A DNA stretch of 64,000 nucleotides from Pseudomonas matsuisoli (GTDB lineage Bacteria; Pseudomonadota; Gammaproteobacteria; Pseudomonadales; Pseudomonadaceae), in contig NZ_BMPO01000003.1 of the NCBI RefSeq assembly GCF_014647635.1, positions 577,978-641,977 of the forward strand. The letters are read 5' to 3'. The notes beneath the pieces were generated by a model, which was not told where the DNA came from, searched no databases, and was given only the letters and a program-made list of their open reading frames with translations. Both the position numbers and the translations under genes were made by a program. Positions 3,293 to 64,000 of this stretch are shown here, in pieces (within the stretch, counting starts at the first letter, position 1; each line of letters begins with the position of its first letter).

Positions 3293-3509
3293 GACGGTTT
3301 CCTCCAGGCTCGATGGCCTTATTGTTGTTATCGAGACGGCATTACTGCCTATCGCACCTGACGCGCAAACTGAGCGGATCAGGTGATCACGGTGTGAACG
3401 GCTTTGTTTTTCGGTGCCGTAAGCACGTCGAGGTATCACGCTCACTGGGAGCGGAACGGACTATAGGGACGTGGACATGGCTGGGGAATGAGGCATGACG
3501 CATGCCCCC

Positions 3510-3524
3510 ATCACGAATCGTGAT
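3510..3524. promoter_or_regulatory. Perfect palindrome with T-N11-A spacing, candidate LysR-type operator
   Basis: ATCACGAATCGTGAT is a perfect dyad around one central base and contains T-N11-A (3511-3523), the recognition pattern of LysR-type regulators. It lies between the LysR gene and the tctC-type gene, about 220 bases upstream of the latter's start. The assignment to this regulator is inference. Confidence 0.5.
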
Positions 3525-3536
3525 AACTGAAGGTCT

Positions 3537-4466
3537 TTACAGTTGAAGGGACGCACCGCGCCAGCGCCCGGATTGCACGACGGTTCGGACGCAATCACGC
3601 ACCACGACTTGCATCGCTAAAGCGGCCGGGGAGAGCTCTTCCTCAGGAAGCGTGCATAGCAGGTTCTGACGCAACGCCCCGGCATCCACCAACTCTGAAA
3701 GATGGAAATCCCGGTCGGCCTCGGGAAAGCGACCGAGCGCCGCGGCCGGTTGCACCGTGCCGCCTAGCCCATGGTTTACCGCGTCCATCAGCATCGCCAG
3801 GGAGTCCACCTCCAGAATGATGGAAGGTACCAGGCCCGCATTGGCGAAGATCGCGTCGAGTCCACTGCGCAGGCCGTGAGCGCTGGTAGGCAGGATTAAC
3901 GGCTGATTCGCCAGATCCACGATTCGCATGGTCTTTGGGGCTTTGCGTTCGCCATCCCGGCGGGTACGAATATGAAACAGCCGCTCAGCCAACAAAGGGC
4001 TGACGCTCCAGCGGCGACCCGGCGTGTTATCGAACAGAATGGCGAGATCGAGCTGTCGTGCGTTAAGCATCGTCGCCAAGTGCCCGGACAGGCTTTCCAC
4101 CACATGCAACCGCACGTCTGGATATCGCTCACGCATAGCTTGCATCAGCGGCAACCCGAGCATCGAGGACGTCGTTGGGGCGAGTCCAATGCTGACGCTG
4201 CCCGAAAGACGCGAATCCTGCGCGCATCTGATGGCCTGTTCGGCATGCCTCAAGGTCAACTGTGCTTCGCGGAAAAAAGCCATGCCGGCCGCAGTTGGCG
4301 TGACACCACTGGCCGAACGTTGCAGTAGCCGAGTCGACAATTCCGACTCAAGCCGACCGATCTGTTGGCTGAGTGCTGACTGCACCAAGCCCAACTCAAC
4401 GGCCGCGCGGCTCATGCTGCCGGCGGTGACAACCGCAACGAAGTATTTCAGCTGACGCAATTCCAT
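3537..4466 (-). CDS. LysR-family transcriptional regulator, likely of the tct-tcu operon
   Basis: The 309-residue protein has the N-terminal LysR helix-turn-helix (MELRQLKYFVAVVTAGSMSRAA through LSQQIGRLE) followed by a substrate-binding-like effector domain from about residue 90. It is the typical length. It is transcribed in the same direction as tctC, tcuA and tcuB, with a 244-base gap to tctC that holds a LysR-type palindrome. Regulation of tricarballylate genes by an adjacent LysR protein (TcuR) is known in Salmonella; equivalence here is inferred from position. Confidence 0.85.
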   Translation of the reverse strand: MELRQLKYFVAVVTAGSMSRAAVELGLVQSALSQQIGRLESELSTRLLQRSASGVTPTAAGMAFFREAQLTLRHAEQAIRCAQDSRLSGSVSIGLAPTTSSMLGLPLMQAMRERYPDVRLHVVESLSGHLATMLNARQLDLAILFDNTPGRRWSVSPLLAERLFHIRTRRDGERKAPKTMRIVDLANQPLILPTSAHGLRSGLDAIFANAGLVPSIILEVDSLAMLMDAVNHGLGGTVQPAAALGRFPEADRDFHLSELVDAGALRQNLLCTLPEEELSPAALAMQVVVRDCVRTVVQSGRWRGASLQL

Positions 4467-4994
4467 GAACGGTTTTCCTGGCCCTCAGTACCTGTTTGAT
4501 CACTCAACCGCCCGGAGCATGCCGCGCACGTTGCCTGGATTGGCGCAATGGCGTGGACGCCTATCCTCAGCGCTCTGCCTGGCACCCCGCGCGTGCCCGA
4601 ACTATCGTTAAGACTGTCCTAGCCTTAAACGGTATTTCCCCCCATGAACCGTAGAGTGCATCCCCCATCCGACGATTCTCAGCCACATTGCGAGCCGCCT
4701 CAGCAGGAGCGGCGAAGTGGAGAAGACCGGCGAAAGCGTAGCCGCTATTTGGTCAAGCCCCCGCGGCGTGAATCAGATGCCGACAACGAGATCGATACCC
4801 CGTCTTCCTGATCTTGGCACTCGCTCGCGTCCAACGGCTGATTGCCCCGCCAATAGCACGCAATGGCTTGGCGGCGACGCCCGGCCAACATGGGCTGGGA
4901 CGCGCACGGATGGCGCCGCTATAATGGCGGCTTTTCCGTGCGCTAGCCGCCGTCGCGCAGACGCCCAAACCGAGACGAGTCCGCCAAAGCCTTT
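4467..4994. other. Intergenic region between the LysR gene and valS
   Basis: This 528-base stretch separates two divergent genes and should hold both promoters. Apart from a consensus TATAAT at 4920-4925 I see no gene, RNA or strong repeat. Open frames here lack convincing codon structure or ribosome sites. Confidence 0.6.
4920..4925 (+). promoter_or_regulatory. Candidate -10 box for valS
   Basis: A perfect TATAAT lies about 70 bases upstream of the valS start. The matching -35 region is poor (TGGGAC, 18-base spacing), so only the -10 match is firm. Confidence 0.4.
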
Positions 4995-7826
4995 ATGGAC
5001 AAGACCTACCAGCCTCACGCCATCGAAACTTCCTGGTATCAGACTTGGGAAGACAACCAGTACTTCGCCCCGCAAGGCGCAGGTCAGCCCTACACCATCA
5101 TGATCCCGCCGCCCAACGTCACGGGCAGCTTGCACATGGGGCATGGTTTCAACAACGCGATCATGGACGCGTTGATTCGCTTTCGTCGCATGCAGGGCCG
5201 CAATACGTTGTGGCAACCCGGCACCGACCACGCGGGCATCGCGACCCAAATGCTGGTCGAGCGCAAAATCGGCGCTGAAGGGCTCTCGCGACATGATCTT
5301 GGCCGCGAAAAGTTTCTGGAAAAAGTGTGGGACTGGAAAGCCGAGTCCGGTGGCAACATCACGCGCCAGATCCGTCGCCTGGGCTCCTCGGTGGATTGGT
5401 CACGCGAGCGATTCACCATGGACGCCGGGCTGTCCAATGCCGTCAATGAAGCCTTCGTGCGCCTGCACGAAGACGGCCTGATCTACCGCGGTAAGCGTCT
5501 CGTCAACTGGGACACCAAACTGCATACCGCCATTTCCGATCTGGAAGTGGAAAACCATGATGAGAAAGGCCACCTGTGGAACCTGCGCTACCCGTTGGCG
5601 GACGGTGCAAAGACATCCGAAGGCAATGACTACCTGATCGTCGCCACGACGCGGCCGGAAACGATGCTTGGCGACGCCGCCGTTGCCGTGCACCCCGAGG
5701 ACGACCGCTACAAGCACCTGATCGGCCAATACATCGAGCTGCCCCTGGTGGGCCGTCGCATTCCAATCGTTGCGGACGATTATTGCGACCCTGAATTCGG
5801 CACCGGCTGCGTGAAGATCACGCCCGCCCATGACTTCAACGACTATGAAGTCGGCAAGCGCCACAATTTGCCGCTGATCAATATCTTCGACGCCGACGCC
5901 GCCGTTCTTCCAGGCGCGCAGGTGTTCAACATCGACGGCAGCGTCAACGCACTGCTCGACGCCACATTGCCCGCCGACTATATCGGGCTGGATCGATTCG
6001 AAGCGCGCAAGCGAATCGTCGAAGCCTTCGATGCACAGGGTTTGCTGGAAAAGATCGAAGACCACGCCCTGAAAGTACCGAAGGGCGACCGCTCCGGCAC
6101 GGTGATCGAGCCTTGGCTGACGGACCAGTGGTACGTCTCCACCAAGCCGTTGGCCGAGAAAGCCATTGGTGTCGTGGAAAGTGGCGAAATTCAATTTGTG
6201 CCTAAGCAGTACGAGAATATGTACTTCTCCTGGATGCGTGACATCCAGGACTGGTGCATCAGCCGTCAGCTCTGGTGGGGCCACCGCATCCCGGCGTGGT
6301 ACGACCAGGCGGGCAACGTCTACGTGGGTCGCGACGAGGCGGAAGTGCGTGCCAAGCATGGCCTCGAAGAAACGCCGCTGCGCCAGGATGACGACGTGCT
6401 CGACACCTGGTTCAGCTCGGGCCTGTGGACCTTCTCCACCCTCGGCTGGCCAGAGCAGACCGACGCCCTGAAGACCTTCCACCCGACCGACGTGCTGGTC
6501 ACGGGCTTCGACATTATCTTCTTCTGGGTCGCCCGGATGATCATGCTGTCCACGCATCTGACCGGGCAGATTCCGTTCAAGACCGTCTACGTCCACGGCC
6601 TCGTGCGCGATGGCCAGGGCCAGAAGATGTCCAAGTCCAAGGGCAACGTGCTCGATCCGCTGGACATCGTCGATGGCATCGACCTCGACACCTTACTGGC
6701 CAAACGTACGACCGGCCTGATGCAGCCCAAGCTGGCCGAAAAAATCGCCAAGCAGACCAAGGCCGAGTTCCCCGAAGGCATCGCCAGCTACGGTACCGAC
6801 GCCCTGCGCTTCACCTTCTGCTCGCTGGCCACGACGGGTCGCGACATCAAGTTCGACATGGGCCGCGTCGAAGGCTATCGCAACTTCTGCAACAAGCTGT
6901 GGAACGCGGCGAACTTCGTCATCGAGAACACCGACGGCCAGGACACTGGTACCAACGACGAAAGCGTTGAGTTGTCGTCGGTCGACCGCTGGATCATCAG
7001 CCAGCTGCAGCGCACCGAAGCCGACGTCACCCGTCACCTCGATGCCTTCCGCTTCGACCTCGCGACGCAGACACTCTACGAATTCATCTGGGACGAGTAC
7101 TGCGCCTGGTACCTGGAACTGGTCAAGCCCGTGCTCTGGGACGAAAACGCGCCGATCGAGCGTCAGCGTGGCACGCGCCGCACGCTGATCCGCGTTTTGG
7201 AAGTGATCCTGCGCCTCGCGCATCCGTTCATGCCCTTCATCACCGAAGAAATCTGGCAGCGCATCAAGGCGCAGGCGGGCGTCAGCGGTGAAACGCTCAT
7301 GCTGCAACCGTGGCCGGTGCCCAACGAGTCGCGTATCGACGCCGCCGCCGAAGGCGACATCGAATGGGTCAAAGCCTTCATGCTCGGTGTCCGGCAGATT
7401 CGCGGCGAGATGAACATCTCCATGGCGAAACGGATCGACGTCATCCTCGCGAACGCGAATGATGAAGACCGTCGCCGTCTGATGGAAAACCTGCCGCTGC
7501 TCACCAAGCTGGCGAAGCTGGAATCCGTTCGCTTGCTCGACGCCTCGGAAGACGCCCCAATGTCCGCCACCGCCCTGGTGGGTGACATGCAGGTGCTGGT
7601 GCCAATGGCAGGCTTGATCGACAAGGCAGCCGAGCTTGCTCGCCTGGATAAAGAGATCGGGCGCCTCGAAGGTGAGGTGAAGCGCGTCGGTGGCAAACTG
7701 TCCAACGAAGGCTTCGTCGCCAAGGCGCCTGCCGACGTGATCGAGAAGGAGCGCGCGAAGCTCGCCGAGGCCGAGCAGGCGGTCGCCAAGCTGGCCGAGC
7801 AACGGGGCAAGATCGCCAACCTTTAA
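4995..7826 (+). CDS. valS: Valyl-tRNA synthetase
   Basis: The 943-residue product has normal ValS length and all class Ia landmarks: HIGH-type HMGH at residues 47-50 after PPPNVTGSL, the editing-domain signature [10 protein letters not shown], and KMSKS at 544-548. The C-terminal 70 residues are Lys/Glu/Ala-rich ([18 protein letters not shown]), the usual ValS coiled coil. It charges tRNA-Val in the cytoplasm and edits mischarged threonine. The gene stands alone, with a hairpin terminator downstream; pepA/holC, often next to valS, are not present here. An essential gene, called with high certainty. Confidence 0.98.
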
Positions 7827-58914: not shown

Positions 58915-59040
58915 GTAGATGCGGCGCAGATCAATCACCCAAAGGATCGAAAACCTCTATAAAAACAGAGGCAACTCACTTATCGGGCATTCGTTCTTCC
59001 AGTGATCTTTGAAATTCAATGCTGCGACCAGCAACTTTTG

Positions 59041-59235: not shown

Positions 59236-59922
59236 CTACCGGATCAAAAGACCTGTCAGCAGGTGCAGGTGCTCCTCATCATCCCACGACAATGCAATCG
59301 AACCTGAGCGCGAGAGCTCAATCTGAACAGGCCTTGAGTTGTACGTGTAGACGATTTTGATCTTGTCGATCGGTGCCGCGCGGCCACCCGTGATCTCCAA
59401 CAACTTCGTCATCGCATTCCCCGTCGATGCAATATCGACCCGGTAGCTGCTTTCGATATCAAACGTCACCGCTTCAGAAACGATCCGCTTAGCCATGACT
59501 CTCGTGAAGCGCTTGTCAGCCTTGAGCTGCTGATAGACCGCAGAGATGTCCGGCTTCACGATCTCCAGCGCGAAGTTCGTCCCAGTTGCAGCTCGGATGA
59601 GTTCTAAAAACGGCTTCAAATCCTTAGGGGGCGAACCCATGCAGATCGAATACCGATCCGGCCCAAGCATTTCAAACACTATGTCGAAGCTGATGAACGT
59701 CGAGTAACTCGATTCGACTGTTTCGCCCAGAGGGTTTGTGAACGACTGGGTAATATCCCGCTGCTCGTGGTACCGAAAAGTGGCCTTGCCATTCAGGAAC
59801 TCGATAGCCTCGACACCAACGTGATTCTGGTCGTTGAACGGCTGCTGTCGAAGCCCATGCAAAAGGGTCTGAAAGTCAATGCGAGCGGTCAGAACCCAGA
59901 GTTTCAGCCGCTTTGACTTCAT
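59236..59922 (-). CDS. Hypothetical protein A, third gene of a coupled three-gene operon
   Basis: A 228-residue soluble protein that I do not recognise. It starts MKSKRLKLWVLTARIDFQTLL and includes CMGSPPKDLKPFLELIRAATGTNF and a C-terminal IKIVYTYNSRPVQIELSRSGSIALSWDDEEH. No signal peptide, membrane segment, P-loop or obvious nuclease motif is visible. The fold looks mixed alpha/beta. Its ATG overlaps the stop of gene B (ATGA), so the products are probably made in fixed ratio and may form one complex. Confidence 0.8.
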   Translation of the reverse strand: MKSKRLKLWVLTARIDFQTLLHGLRQQPFNDQNHVGVEAIEFLNGKATFRYHEQRDITQSFTNPLGETVESSYSTFISFDIVFEMLGPDRYSICMGSPPKDLKPFLELIRAATGTNFALEIVKPDISAVYQQLKADKRFTRVMAKRIVSEAVTFDIESSYRVDIASTGNAMTKLLEITGGRAAPIDKIKIVYTYNSRPVQIELSRSGSIALSWDDEEHLHLLTGLLIR

Positions 59923-61088
59923 TTCGTCAGACTCCTTTCGATGTCATTCAGGGTCTTTTGCGCCGCCTCCTCCAAGCGGATCTTGAGCTTCTGCTCGAAC
60001 ACCGGTTCGGCACGTACCAGATTTTTGGCGTATTTCCCGTTGTTGTAGTTGTAGACACCTTTGACGATATAGGAGAAATCGCAGTACTTGGCCTGGTTAC
60101 CAAACTGAGCCTCAAACAGGACTAGCTCAGACCCAACGAGCTTCTCACGAGCTTTCCATCGAATCTTCCACATATAGAACCCGTGGCTTTCAAGCTCAAG
60201 CAACTGCTTCGACTCCAATACACCCTTACCCTTCAGGGACGCCTTGTCGATGCGAATGATCTTGTGAATCCTGGCTTCTGGCTGCGGCCTGGCCAGTTCG
60301 GCCTCAGGGTCGCCATCCTCCCCCTCATCTTCTGACTCAACCTCAATCGAATCCTCGATCACCAGCGCATCGTCACTTAGATCTAGGTCATCATCTTCTT
60401 GGTCTTTAGGGTTGAACGTGGAGACGTCGATCACGTCGACCACCTCCATATCCTTGAGATTACGGATTAAGCTACGAAGGAAATTCGTCCTGATGCTCGC
60501 ATCAAGGATCGCCTCCAAGGAAATGGTTCGGGTCGCCACGTCCTGATCAGTGACGATCTCGATCTGGGAATACAACTGATCTGTGATGTCCTTGAACTTG
60601 TCATTCATGGGGCCAGTGATCTTCCAGCCACTGCCCTGCTTCTCAAGGATCACCTCCGCCGTCTTCTCAACCACTTGGCGGAACTCTGCCTGGCTCAGAT
60701 CGAGCTTTTGGTATTTGACGGTGAGTTTGAGCTGATCGCCATGGACGGCCACCTCAGCCTGTTCGCGCTGGTCATCCACCAGCCATTCCTTGACGGATGT
60801 GAGAGCGTCGGTCAGCTGGTCTTTAGTGACCGATGTCGTGACGACCACATTGGTGGTTTTCTCACGACTGTCACGCCCACCCACCAGGAGGGACAGGTTC
60901 CGATAGTCGTAGTAGTCATGGAACAGAGCACTGAAACGATTGGCTAGGAATTTTTTGTCCGATTCATTGGAGATCACGATCCCTCTGGAGAGGAAGACCT
61001 TCCTGAGCTCAGCGCTCGTCAGGCTTCGCTGCGTGAGCGCATCGTAGATCGCTTTGTCGGATGCAAAGTACAAACTACCCATTCTCAT
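59919..61088 (-). CDS. Hypothetical protein B, second gene, with acidic linker
   Basis: A 389-residue protein of unknown family. The N-terminal part (about residues 9-70, DKAIYDALTQRSLTSAELRKVFLSRG) looks like a helix-turn-helix-type module. The centre (about 225-270) is a low-complexity acidic linker (QEDDDLDLSDDALVIEDS; EDEGEDGDPEAE), and the C-terminal 110 residues form a basic, Tyr-rich domain (IRWKAREKLVG; YIVKGVYNYNNGKYAKNLV). The start at 61088 follows the gene C stop by one base; ATG at 61082 is an alternative. Possible DNA- or RNA-binding adaptor, by inference only. Confidence 0.8.
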   Translation of the reverse strand: MRMGSLYFASDKAIYDALTQRSLTSAELRKVFLSRGIVISNESDKKFLANRFSALFHDYYDYRNLSLLVGGRDSREKTTNVVVTTSVTKDQLTDALTSVKEWLVDDQREQAEVAVHGDQLKLTVKYQKLDLSQAEFRQVVEKTAEVILEKQGSGWKITGPMNDKFKDITDQLYSQIEIVTDQDVATRTISLEAILDASIRTNFLRSLIRNLKDMEVVDVIDVSTFNPKDQEDDDLDLSDDALVIEDSIEVESEDEGEDGDPEAELARPQPEARIHKIIRIDKASLKGKGVLESKQLLELESHGFYMWKIRWKAREKLVGSELVLFEAQFGNQAKYCDFSYIVKGVYNYNNGKYAKNLVRAEPVFEQKLKIRLEEAAQKTLNDIERSLTK

Positions 61089-61089
61089 G

Positions 61090-62133
61090 TCAGTCTCGCT
61101 CCCATCCGATTACTTCGGGCTTATAGTTCGGAATCGCGTGATTTATTATTTCCAGTTCGACCGCCTGCAGTTTTCGCTTGCGGTTTTCGTCTTCGCCCCA
61201 CTCGGTCACATAGCTGTTAATGGCAGTATTGAAGTTGCTAATGATGCTGCTGTGATGGTGGCGATTGGCAACCCTGATTCGGATCTTCAAGTCCTTGTTG
61301 GCGTTAAGGATCTGGAACCTGGAAAGCGCGTCAAAGAGGTACCTAAACTCGATCTCAGTGCTGCCATCGCGGCGATAATAGATCAGATAGCCTTCGCTAT
61401 AAGTCTCAGTTACGTCTTGGGCCTTCTCGCAGTACGACTTGACCTCTTTGTGGTGAATGATCATATACGGCGAGGCGATGAGTTCCGCGGTTGCCGCACG
61501 ATCCCAGTATTCACCACTAGCCTTGTGCAAGACGAGGTCAGGGTAATAGAAGGTGTAATTGTCCCTAGGGAATTTCCCTTCCGCCCTCAGGGTGTTTACA
61601 TCGAGCTGCAAGGTCTTTAGGTAATTGATCAATGAAGGTTCGACGATATGAACCTGCTGAGAATCTTTGATGTGCAGATTCTCACCTTTGTAATCCTTGA
61701 AGTGATCGTAGAAATTCTTGTCGTAATCGTCATCGTGGTTATAGACGAACAGCATCCCACGGATTTCATACTTCTCACGCTTAGCCAAATGATAGCGAGT
61801 CTGCCATTCCGGCGAAGCCCGAGCACAGTCGATGGTCTTGCCCAAGGACTTCAAGGCCTTCTTGATCGAGTCCAGAGTAATAGAGCCAACCGCATAGCTC
61901 TTCAAATCGGTATGAAGGTAGATGGCTTTGTTCAGATAAGGATCTGCGTACTTGAACACCACGTCAGCCGGGTGTGTGTGCTCGGACTTTTTCAACGGCG
62001 CGTGAGCATCCTTCTTCACACAGACGAAGTTGAGGTTTGGAGGCCCCTCTTTCTTCCACCTGAAAAAGCTGAAGATGTCGTTGGAAACGAGCTCCGCGAG
62101 TCTCGCAATGTTATCGGTTTCGCCGCCTGACAT
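61090..62133 (-). CDS. Hypothetical protein C, first gene, possible PD-(D/E)XK nuclease
   Basis: A 347-residue protein of unknown family, first in the operon. In its N-terminal third, HTHPADVVFKYADPYL followed by KAIYLHTDLKSY gives Asp57 and, after a hydrophobic strand, Asp76-Leu-Lys78, the spacing and context of a PD-(D/E)XK nuclease core; Glu13 could be the helix acid. The rest is mixed alpha/beta with a FVYNHDDDYDKNFYDHFKDY stretch. I chose the ATG at 62133 with CAGGAA upstream. Motif is suggestive, not proof. Confidence 0.75.
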   Translation of the reverse strand: MSGGETDNIARLAELVSNDIFSFFRWKKEGPPNLNFVCVKKDAHAPLKKSEHTHPADVVFKYADPYLNKAIYLHTDLKSYAVGSITLDSIKKALKSLGKTIDCARASPEWQTRYHLAKREKYEIRGMLFVYNHDDDYDKNFYDHFKDYKGENLHIKDSQQVHIVEPSLINYLKTLQLDVNTLRAEGKFPRDNYTFYYPDLVLHKASGEYWDRAATAELIASPYMIIHHKEVKSYCEKAQDVTETYSEGYLIYYRRDGSTEIEFRYLFDALSRFQILNANKDLKIRIRVANRHHHSSIISNFNTAINSYVTEWGEDENRKRKLQAVELEIINHAIPNYKPEVIGWERD

Positions 62134-62275
62134 GGTCGTTCCTGTCACGAAATGGATGCGCAGGAACGATACCGGCCTGGGAGCGTTGGCCCGTGCCGTG
62201 GAGGTGCGTCCTGCTTTGAATGTGGCCTCATGCCAGTACAAAGTATCGCAAAACTCTGTGCTCGGCCATCAGGTG

Positions 62276-62482
62276 ATGGGGGATCACCCGCGCGTCACGC
62301 GCTGCGGTGGCCGGCAGGGGCATGCAGCCTTCACTTACCACCTTAACCAGATCACCAAAGGCACCGACAACCTCCGCGATCACGTCCTAAGCGAGCTCTA
62401 CAACGTCGGGTCAGTGCTGCGCTGGCAGCTCAAAGACGCGACACCGCTCCACCGCGGTGTCACCCGCTATGTCAGCCCGTAG
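62276..62482 (+). pseudogene. Coding-like remnant, C-terminal fragment of an unknown protein
   Basis: The plus strand reads open for 68 codons to a TAG at 62480-62482 with strong G/C third-position bias, for example GHAAFTYHLNQITKGTDNL and YNVGSVLRWQLKDATPLHRG. There is no start or ribosome site, and the sequence upstream reads as gene C on the other strand. It looks like the 3' end of an older gene cut by island insertion. Family not recognised. Confidence 0.35.
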
Positions 62483-62710: not shown

Positions 62711-63874
62711 ATGAAATGGATTCGCAGGTTTTTTTGCCGTCTCACTTCAATTTCGGAATCATCTGCTAGTGAACCCTCGGCTCAGCAGTCCGAACACAAC
62801 CGAGAGGACGATCACTATTTCTCGGATGAGCCCATCGAGTCTAAAGCCTATGACCGGTTTGGAAGGGCACTTTTCGCCGCTAGGATTGCCGAGACGATTG
62901 CCAAGCGTAGGGATCCATCCAGTATCGTTATAGGTCTATTCGGCCCGTGGGGTGATGGCAAGACTTCCGTACTCAAAATGATGGAGGAGTCGCTTGTCCA
63001 ATATGAGCAGGTCGTCACGATACGATTCAACCCTTGGCACTTCCCCTCCGAGGATGCGCTTCTGCGGGGATTCTTCGCCACCTTGGCTGAGGCTCTAGGC
63101 AAGGAGCCGGCCTTCAAAGAAAGAGCAGCAAAACTGCTTGAGTCCTATGGCGGTATTCTATCGGTCGTCTCAGTCGCTCTACCAGGTGTAGAGATTAATC
63201 CCGGTGAAGCTGCGAAGAATATCGGGGAGTCCTTATCTAAGGTCAGTCTCGATCAACTCAAAGGCCAGATAGACGCTCTTCTAGGTCAGAGTGGAAAAAG
63301 GTTGGTCATTCTCATCGATGATATCGACCGGTTGGATAAAGACGAAACGAATGCCATCTTCAAGTTGGTAAAGCTCTCGGCAAGTTTCAAGTACACCAGT
63401 TATGTACTGGCTTTTGACGATGATGTAGTCGCTGCGGCTATAGGAGAACGATACGGCGCGGGTGGGCATGAAGCCGGGCGGGCGTTTCTAGAAAAGATCA
63501 TCCAAGTTCCTTTACATCTGCCTCCCGCCGATCGGATGAGCCTGCGTCAGATCACTTTTGAAGGTATCGACCATGCTCTGAACCAAGCGGGAATTGTCCT
63601 TGATCAGCGCCAGATCGACGTGTTCTCGCGTTATTTCGTGGACGGACTTGAACCGAAGCTAGAGACCCCAAGGATTGCGAAGCTGTACACAAATGCGCTG
63701 ATGTTTGCGTTACCTCTTGTAAGCGGCGAAGTGAACATTGCCGAGTTCATGCTAATTGAAGGGGTGCGAGTGCTTTACCCAAAGCTATATGCGGCTATCC
63801 GTGACAATCCCGACATATTCTTGAAAGGTGAGCCTCGCCAGGCCTTGAGAGGCTTGGAGCAACCACCTTCCCCC
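62711..63874 (+). pseudogene. KAP-family P-loop NTPase, truncated by an IS3-type element
   Basis: The first 388 codons encode a KAP NTPase: Walker A GPWGDGKTS (about residues 77-85), the family signature RFNPWHF, Walker B LVILIDDIDRLDKDE and LAFDDDVV. KAP NTPases are often membrane-linked and occur in phage-exclusion loci such as that of PifA. At about 63875 the reading frame passes into an IS end and stops 26 codons later with unrelated residues. The family is usually longer, so the C-terminal part is lost or moved. Confidence 0.85.
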
Positions 63875-64000
63875 TGTAGTGGTCAACCCATCCCGGACAG
63901 TGGGTTAAGTTTTTCTTCGGCCACCGCAGGTGGCAGTCCGTCGTTGAACTGATGTGGCCTGATCCAGTTGTAACGGTGCATCAGGTAATAACTGATATCC
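63875..64000 (-). mobile_element. IS3-family insertion sequence (one end, rest beyond the window)
   Basis: The element begins with TGTAGTGGTCAACCC at 63875, a TG-starting terminal repeat, and is followed at once by the 3' end of an IS3-type OrfB on the minus strand. It interrupts the KAP NTPase gene. The other end and any target duplication are not visible. Confidence 0.85.
63883..64000 (-). CDS. IS3-family transposase OrfB, C-terminal part (partial)
   Basis: The minus strand reads DISYYLMHRYNWIRPHQFND and then GLPPAVAEEKLNPLSGMG before a TGA at 63883-63885. This is the highly conserved C-terminus of rve-type IS3 transposases (YN..RPHQ..GGLPPA). Only the last 38 codons are in the window. Confidence 0.92.
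   Translation of the reverse strand, partial: DISYYLMHRYNWIRPHQFNDGLPPAVAEEKLNPLSGMG

Follow-up and report, generated by a model that had tools for sequence, protein, structure and literature searches.

The closest described relative of the locus studied here is Rst_3HP, a system of three genes, Hp1, Hp2 and Hp3, carried by P2-like prophages (Rousset et al. 2022, PMC9122126). In the excerpts of that paper available to us, an anti-phage system of P2-like prophages protects against P1, and no clear domain is reported in the three 3HP proteins. In the accessible parts of two later papers, most Rst_3HP copies are placed on prophages (the DefenseFinder paper, PMC9090908) and a survey table gives the 3HP mechanism as unknown (PMC10855318); no published mechanism was found in the literature that we searched, which consisted mostly of open-access journals, in part as excerpts. 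The P1-protective three-gene system of Rousset et al. and Rst_3HP are most likely one system, because of the naming in the excerpted DefenseFinder paper (PMC9090908) and the model and record matches described below; anti-phage activity is on record for what is most likely an E. coli relative. Here, we analysed a 64,000-nucleotide stretch of Pseudomonas matsuisoli DNA (contig NZ_BMPO01000003.1; the whole stretch is called the window) and find that an operon at positions 59236-62133 is, with near certainty from sequence comparison, a member of this known anti-phage system. What is new is the member itself, which is divergent, and a proposal for the mechanism that we did not meet in the papers searched.

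The operon consists of three adjacent open reading frames on the minus strand, separated by a 1-base gap (genes 1 and 2) and a 4-base overlap (genes 2 and 3), and we recovered the same coordinates as the initial annotation. Gene 1 (62133-61090, minus strand, 347 aa) is Hp1, matched by the PADLOC model PDLC03004 with an E-value of 2.6e-65, and the adjoining gene 2 (61088-59919, minus strand, 389 aa) is Hp2, matched by PDLC03005 at 2.9e-39. All three genes also match unnamed PHROGs families (phrog_7059 for gene 1, 1.6e-116). The initial annotation had called the operon uncharacterised and none of its genes placeable in a known family, which fits the lack of any significant match in Pfam and NCBIfam scans of the three genes; both statements have to be withdrawn, as the system has a name, PADLOC calls genes 1 and 2 Hp1 and Hp2, and gene 3 proves to be a diverged form of Hp3. 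In Vibrio phage 1F53_PE003, the notes of the record itself label the three genes Rst_3HP Hp1, Hp2 and Hp3. The operon of a P2-like Klebsiella phage matches all three PADLOC 3HP models near-perfectly and is flanked by the genes for the portal protein and the replication endonuclease, the kind of hotspot treated in the part of Rousset et al. that we could consult (PMC9122126). We had considered a previously unknown system and rejected it, since both PADLOC and a public phage record name 3HP. Compared with the system of Rousset et al. (PMC9122126, in excerpt), the window operon has homologues of all three genes in the same order and with equally tight spacing, but differs in its Hp3 and in its setting, a cassette among unrelated flanks.

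Gene 3 (59922-59236, minus strand, 228 aa) is not matched by the PADLOC Hp3 model at E≤1, and that model matches 79 of the 107 third genes in alignment A2, the one from the window not being among them. In contrast, when 145 third genes from outside the clade of the window were made into a profile, it matched gene 3 with an E-value of 1.2e-33 and none of 1242 decoy open reading frames taken from those same loci at E≤1; hhalign gives 99.8% for gene 3 against the Hp3 profile. On this basis gene 3 is a divergent Hp3, mostly 11-24% identical to third genes outside its clade, so that complete 3HP systems in this clade may escape profile-based surveys.

That the three genes might be found together in other genomes, a check put forward with the initial annotation, is borne out beyond chance. 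We assembled 173 loci, comprising the 80 best of 85 loci from bacterial genomes and the 80 best of 97 from viral contigs, all picked by gene 1, together with the window, six further loci found by searching whole genomes and six from phages and plasmids; the window operon is counted twice (as the window and as L001), and near-duplicates are common among the viral contigs. The three genes occur in the same order on one strand in 159 of the 173. Nine loci have gene 1 only and five have genes 1 and 2 only; in 12 of these 14 the contig runs out inside the last gene detected or shortly past it (three of these appear to be a single sequence in triplicate), and the other two are L084, with no third gene detected, and a distant variant, L012. 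After removal of four complete loci that were duplicates or had gene 3 cut, the remaining 155 were reduced to 95 at 90% gene 1 identity. The protein distance matrices of the three genes correlate at 0.93, 0.77 and 0.81 (permutations reach at most 0.09), as expected for genes that move as a unit. Among phage records, 8 of 50,697 carry a relative of gene 1, as do 21 of 72,556 plasmid records, and all six of these 29 records that we inspected carry the three genes in the same order. A scan of the viral contigs with the single gene 1 sequence found nothing; the alignment-based scan found the 97. Within the family and order of the host, gene 1 is present in 5 of 95 genomes, its own included, one case being a distant variant and one a contig-end fragment, and a search for near-identical DNA in Escherichia coli recovered at least 80% of the Klebsiella phage version in 17 of 5426 genomes.

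Hp1 is a predicted PD-(D/E)XK nuclease. The initial annotation had seen a possible core of this type in gene 1, and the alignments bear this out: D57, D76 and K78, as well as H54, P55 and S79, are invariant in all 95 non-redundant homologues (where residue numbers equal the window Hp1 numbers plus 36), E5 is kept in 94 of the 95, and D57, D76 and K78 are present in all 29 rows of alignment A1. The kept residues E5, D57, D76 and K78 follow the order of a PD-(D/E)XK site, with E5 encoded at 62119-62121 and the predicted catalytic core, from D57 to D76-L-K78 with H54-P55 just ahead, at 61900..61965, both on the minus strand. Furthermore, all 120 Hp1 homologues listed, of 386 found, carry a precomputed PF26115 label, and three of the 120 are named 'GAPS4 PD-(D/E)XK nuclease domain-containing protein' in UniRef; going by these names, PF26115 would be the GAPS4 PD-(D/E)XK nuclease domain. 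Neither the single Hp1 sequence nor its profile matched any PDB chain.

Structure prediction suggests an RdgC/CENP-N/CENP-L fold for both Hp2 and Hp3. In each model, a two-domain RdgC-type fold extends across most of the chain (residues 73-385 in Hp2); the first kinetochore protein in the Foldseek matches of Hp2 is CENP-N, and in those of Hp3 it is Iml3/CENP-L. Hp2 residues 11-69 (60882..61058, minus strand) form a helical, helix-turn-helix (HTH)-like N-terminal domain with four helices in the model; the fold search barely covers this domain and identifies no fold there. A helical domain is found at the N-terminus of CENP-N as well. The acidic segment that the initial annotation described as joining an HTH-like and a basic domain of gene 2 is real and conserved: residues 226-280 (60249..60413, minus strand) have a net charge of -16, are mostly of low confidence (pLDDT about 52-71 across most of the segment) and are net negative in 94 of 95 homologues, with a charge of -5 or lower in 77. 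Its position was misread, as in the model the linker breaks up the latter half of a single RdgC-like fold. PF15008 (DUF4518) matches 16 of the 102 Hp2 members of alignment A3 (best E-value 1.5e-5) and none of 10 members on rescan.

This fold would put 3HP beside several known proteins. E. coli RdgC forms a DNA-binding ring (2owl) with a fold that, in the models, is shared by Hp3 and by Hp2 residues 73-385; its helical tip is absent from both models, and in 3HP two different chains are encoded in one operon and coupled to a nuclease. CENP-N and CENP-L of the inner kinetochore (yeast Chl4 and Iml3) are likewise two different proteins of RdgC-like fold, and the yeast proteins pair with each other according to the excerpts of PMC11077077 available to us; they are kinetochore proteins, whereas 3HP is bacterial and has no kinetochore, and Hp2 would pair with Hp3 by analogy. 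The same excerpts describe an RdgC-like fold within a phage exclusion system, in lambda RexA (PMC11077077), which, unlike 3HP, is a homodimer with RexB as partner and has no nuclease. RexA was not among the 50 fold matches listed for either model, which excludes nothing. Phages themselves encode RdgC-like proteins. If true, the clamp reading set out below would tie phage defence to a DNA-clamp fold also present in recombination control, in lambda RexA and in the inner kinetochore of eukaryotes.

On the strength of these models we lean, with moderate confidence, towards a mechanism in which Hp2 and Hp3 form an RdgC-like clamp on invading DNA and the predicted nuclease Hp1 cuts it. By analogy to Chl4 and Iml3 (PMC11077077, in excerpt), Hp2 would pair with Hp3, and the pair would hold DNA without specificity in an open horseshoe, the models being devoid of the RdgC helical tip. 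Hp1 would dock on this clamp, which would present phage or plasmid DNA for cutting. The cue that marks DNA as foreign could, as a guess, be an end, a branch or a topological state met by the DNA-bound clamp, and the conserved acidic linker of Hp2 may, equally as a guess, fill the clamp at rest. The suggestion of the initial annotation that a nuclease and two accessory subunits act against phage is favoured by the nuclease motif, the clamp-fold models and the likely P1 protection by the family. For a system present in defence catalogues since 2022, the clamp-and-nuclease reading would give a mechanism to a mere name.

Several observations weigh against a clamp of two RdgC-like chains. The Foldseek TM-scores for Hp2 are low, about 0.2, an unrelated protein, ywmB, is one of its four matches at E≤0.001, RdgC is not among the 50 matches listed for it, and its fold match stands barely above half-domain matches of other folds (KA1, 8.7 over 82 residues). 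In Pfam, no significant RdgC or CENP-L/N match was seen for Hp2 or Hp3 within the 25 families listed first, out of 50 and of 128; one of 107 Hp3 members matches the CENP-L family, at an E-value of 0.0074 that is not significant across 107 scans. Searched as sequence and profile against PDB chains, Hp2 hit no relevant chain (three chance matches, E-values 0.49-3.1) and Hp3 hit none. Profile comparison of Hp2 with Hp3 detects no sequence similarity, and their coupling across 95 pairs peaks at 0.657, not clearly better than the 0.63 of shuffled pairs. Hp2 is acidic overall (median pI 5.45), the structure predictions cover Hp2 and Hp3 as single chains, and phage exclusion by RexA, in the excerpts of PMC11077077, does not strictly require DNA binding.

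The same evidence for a nuclease and a clamp could also be read as abortive infection, in which Hp2 and Hp3 would sense a phage event and Hp1 would cut the cell's own DNA, so that the host dies before phage release. A non-specific clamp alone would not spare host DNA and the conserved acidic linker could lock a dangerous enzyme, whereas the excerpts of PMC9122126 report P1 protection only and make no mention of cell death for the system; we judge this alternative unlikely, if serious. More doubtful is a recombination guard, in which the RdgC-like pair would sit at sites of RecA or phage recombinases and Hp1 would cut the intermediates, triggered by phage recombination or replication restart. 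RdgC lowers RecA activity and is a non-specific DNA binder (PMC11077077, in excerpt), the model folds match RdgC and RdgC-like proteins occur on phages, but a common fold does not carry function over. A toxin-antitoxin-like unit or maintenance module of mobile elements, carried by prophages and plasmids with no role in defence, would fit the presence of the genes on phages and plasmids and their movement as a cassette, but is very improbable, and was rejected as first choice, as a member of the family most likely protects against P1 and the Hp1-Hp2-Hp3 order is also kept in bacterial genomes.

Variants of the operon bear on how the clamp-and-nuclease arrangement might be built. In a distant variant (L176, positions 3399-6489; G025:C43), an NA37/NdpA-like nucleoid-associated protein (2.7e-22) shares an operon with a nuclease resembling Hp1 (1.1e-17) and a protein resembling Hp2 (1.1e-8). 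Two plasmids, from Ewingella and Pantoea, carry two-gene operons (L177, 3947-6020; L178, 3947-6023) of an Hp1-related nuclease, matching Hp1 at 1.5e-10 or better, and one partner, which is about 25% identical to the L176 partner and is matched by Hp2 itself weakly (0.07) or not at all. On the basis of these versions, a core of nuclease and Hp2-like protein seems to take varied third subunits. The two-gene operons are perhaps GAPS4, an anti-phage system of Gamma-Mobile-Trio elements that consists of two genes, the partner being GAPS4b. GAPS4 would be tied to 3HP by the PF26115 label on the 120 listed Hp1 homologues, three of which bear its name, and, if the plasmid loci are GAPS4, by their Hp1-related nuclease, the partner being tied to Hp2 through L176 only; 3HP differs in having a third gene. 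The clamp-nuclease reading, if true, would link 3HP to GAPS4-like systems. A broader and more tentative idea, which we rate as possible but short of probable, is that 3HP represents a bacterial counterpart of the CENP-N/CENP-L clamp used as a weapon, with two different RdgC-fold proteins trapping invading DNA for the nuclease, within a modular clamp-nuclease family whose third subunit is Hp3, NA37 or none and which possibly includes GAPS4.

The operon moves as a cassette into unrelated flanks. Across 11 related copies, DNA similarity starts 108-178 nt upstream of gene 1 in ten and 368 nt upstream in one, and ends at most 22 nt from the end of gene 3 in nine and about 160 nt beyond it in two. 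The window neighbours (mesX and mesD homologues, a flavin reductase-like gene and a KAP gene) are present in none of the 13 related loci searched. The leader upstream of gene 1 (62134..62273, minus strand), made of DNA common to copies at other sites, likely holds the operon promoter; a scan upstream of gene 1 detected no consensus promoter. A short plus-strand reading frame remnant at the edge of the shared cassette (62282-62482) has no plasmid match and may represent the end of a gene truncated when the cassette inserted. A second complete operon lies on another contig of the same genome, encoding proteins 88.7, 88.2 and 87.7% identical to those of the window; this copy (L173, 8838-11852; G000:C2) lies near a DUF5677 gene, a gene with weak TPR matches and a DNA polymerase III alpha gene.

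Dispersed repeats had been described on both sides of the operon; what we find of them is weak, two 49-nt copies at 59038 and 62499 that are 71% alike. A 15-base core of the repeat occurs 8 times in the window at up to 3 mismatches, against 3.3 expected, a count reached in 2 of 100 shuffles. The KAP NTPase gene already noted beside the operon is confirmed at 62711-63952 (PF07693, 3.5e-48; PADLOC PifA, 3e-60). It looks shortened, since only the first half of the PifA model is covered (positions 4-348 of 720). The window ends at the contig end, and its last 126 bases (63875-64000) recur at the end of another contig of the same genome, as an assembly-breaking repeat would; the KAP gene, which runs into this segment, looks cut by a mobile element.

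Other loci have neighbours of their own. In L175 (12636-18008; G027), a 1790-aa open reading frame with weak AAA/nSTAND1 matches lies just downstream of the 3HP operon, and an integrase-core (transposase-like) gene lies upstream. In a P2-like phage (L003, 6208-6887), a SinR-annotated gene and a small gene lie just upstream of the operon, on the opposite strand.
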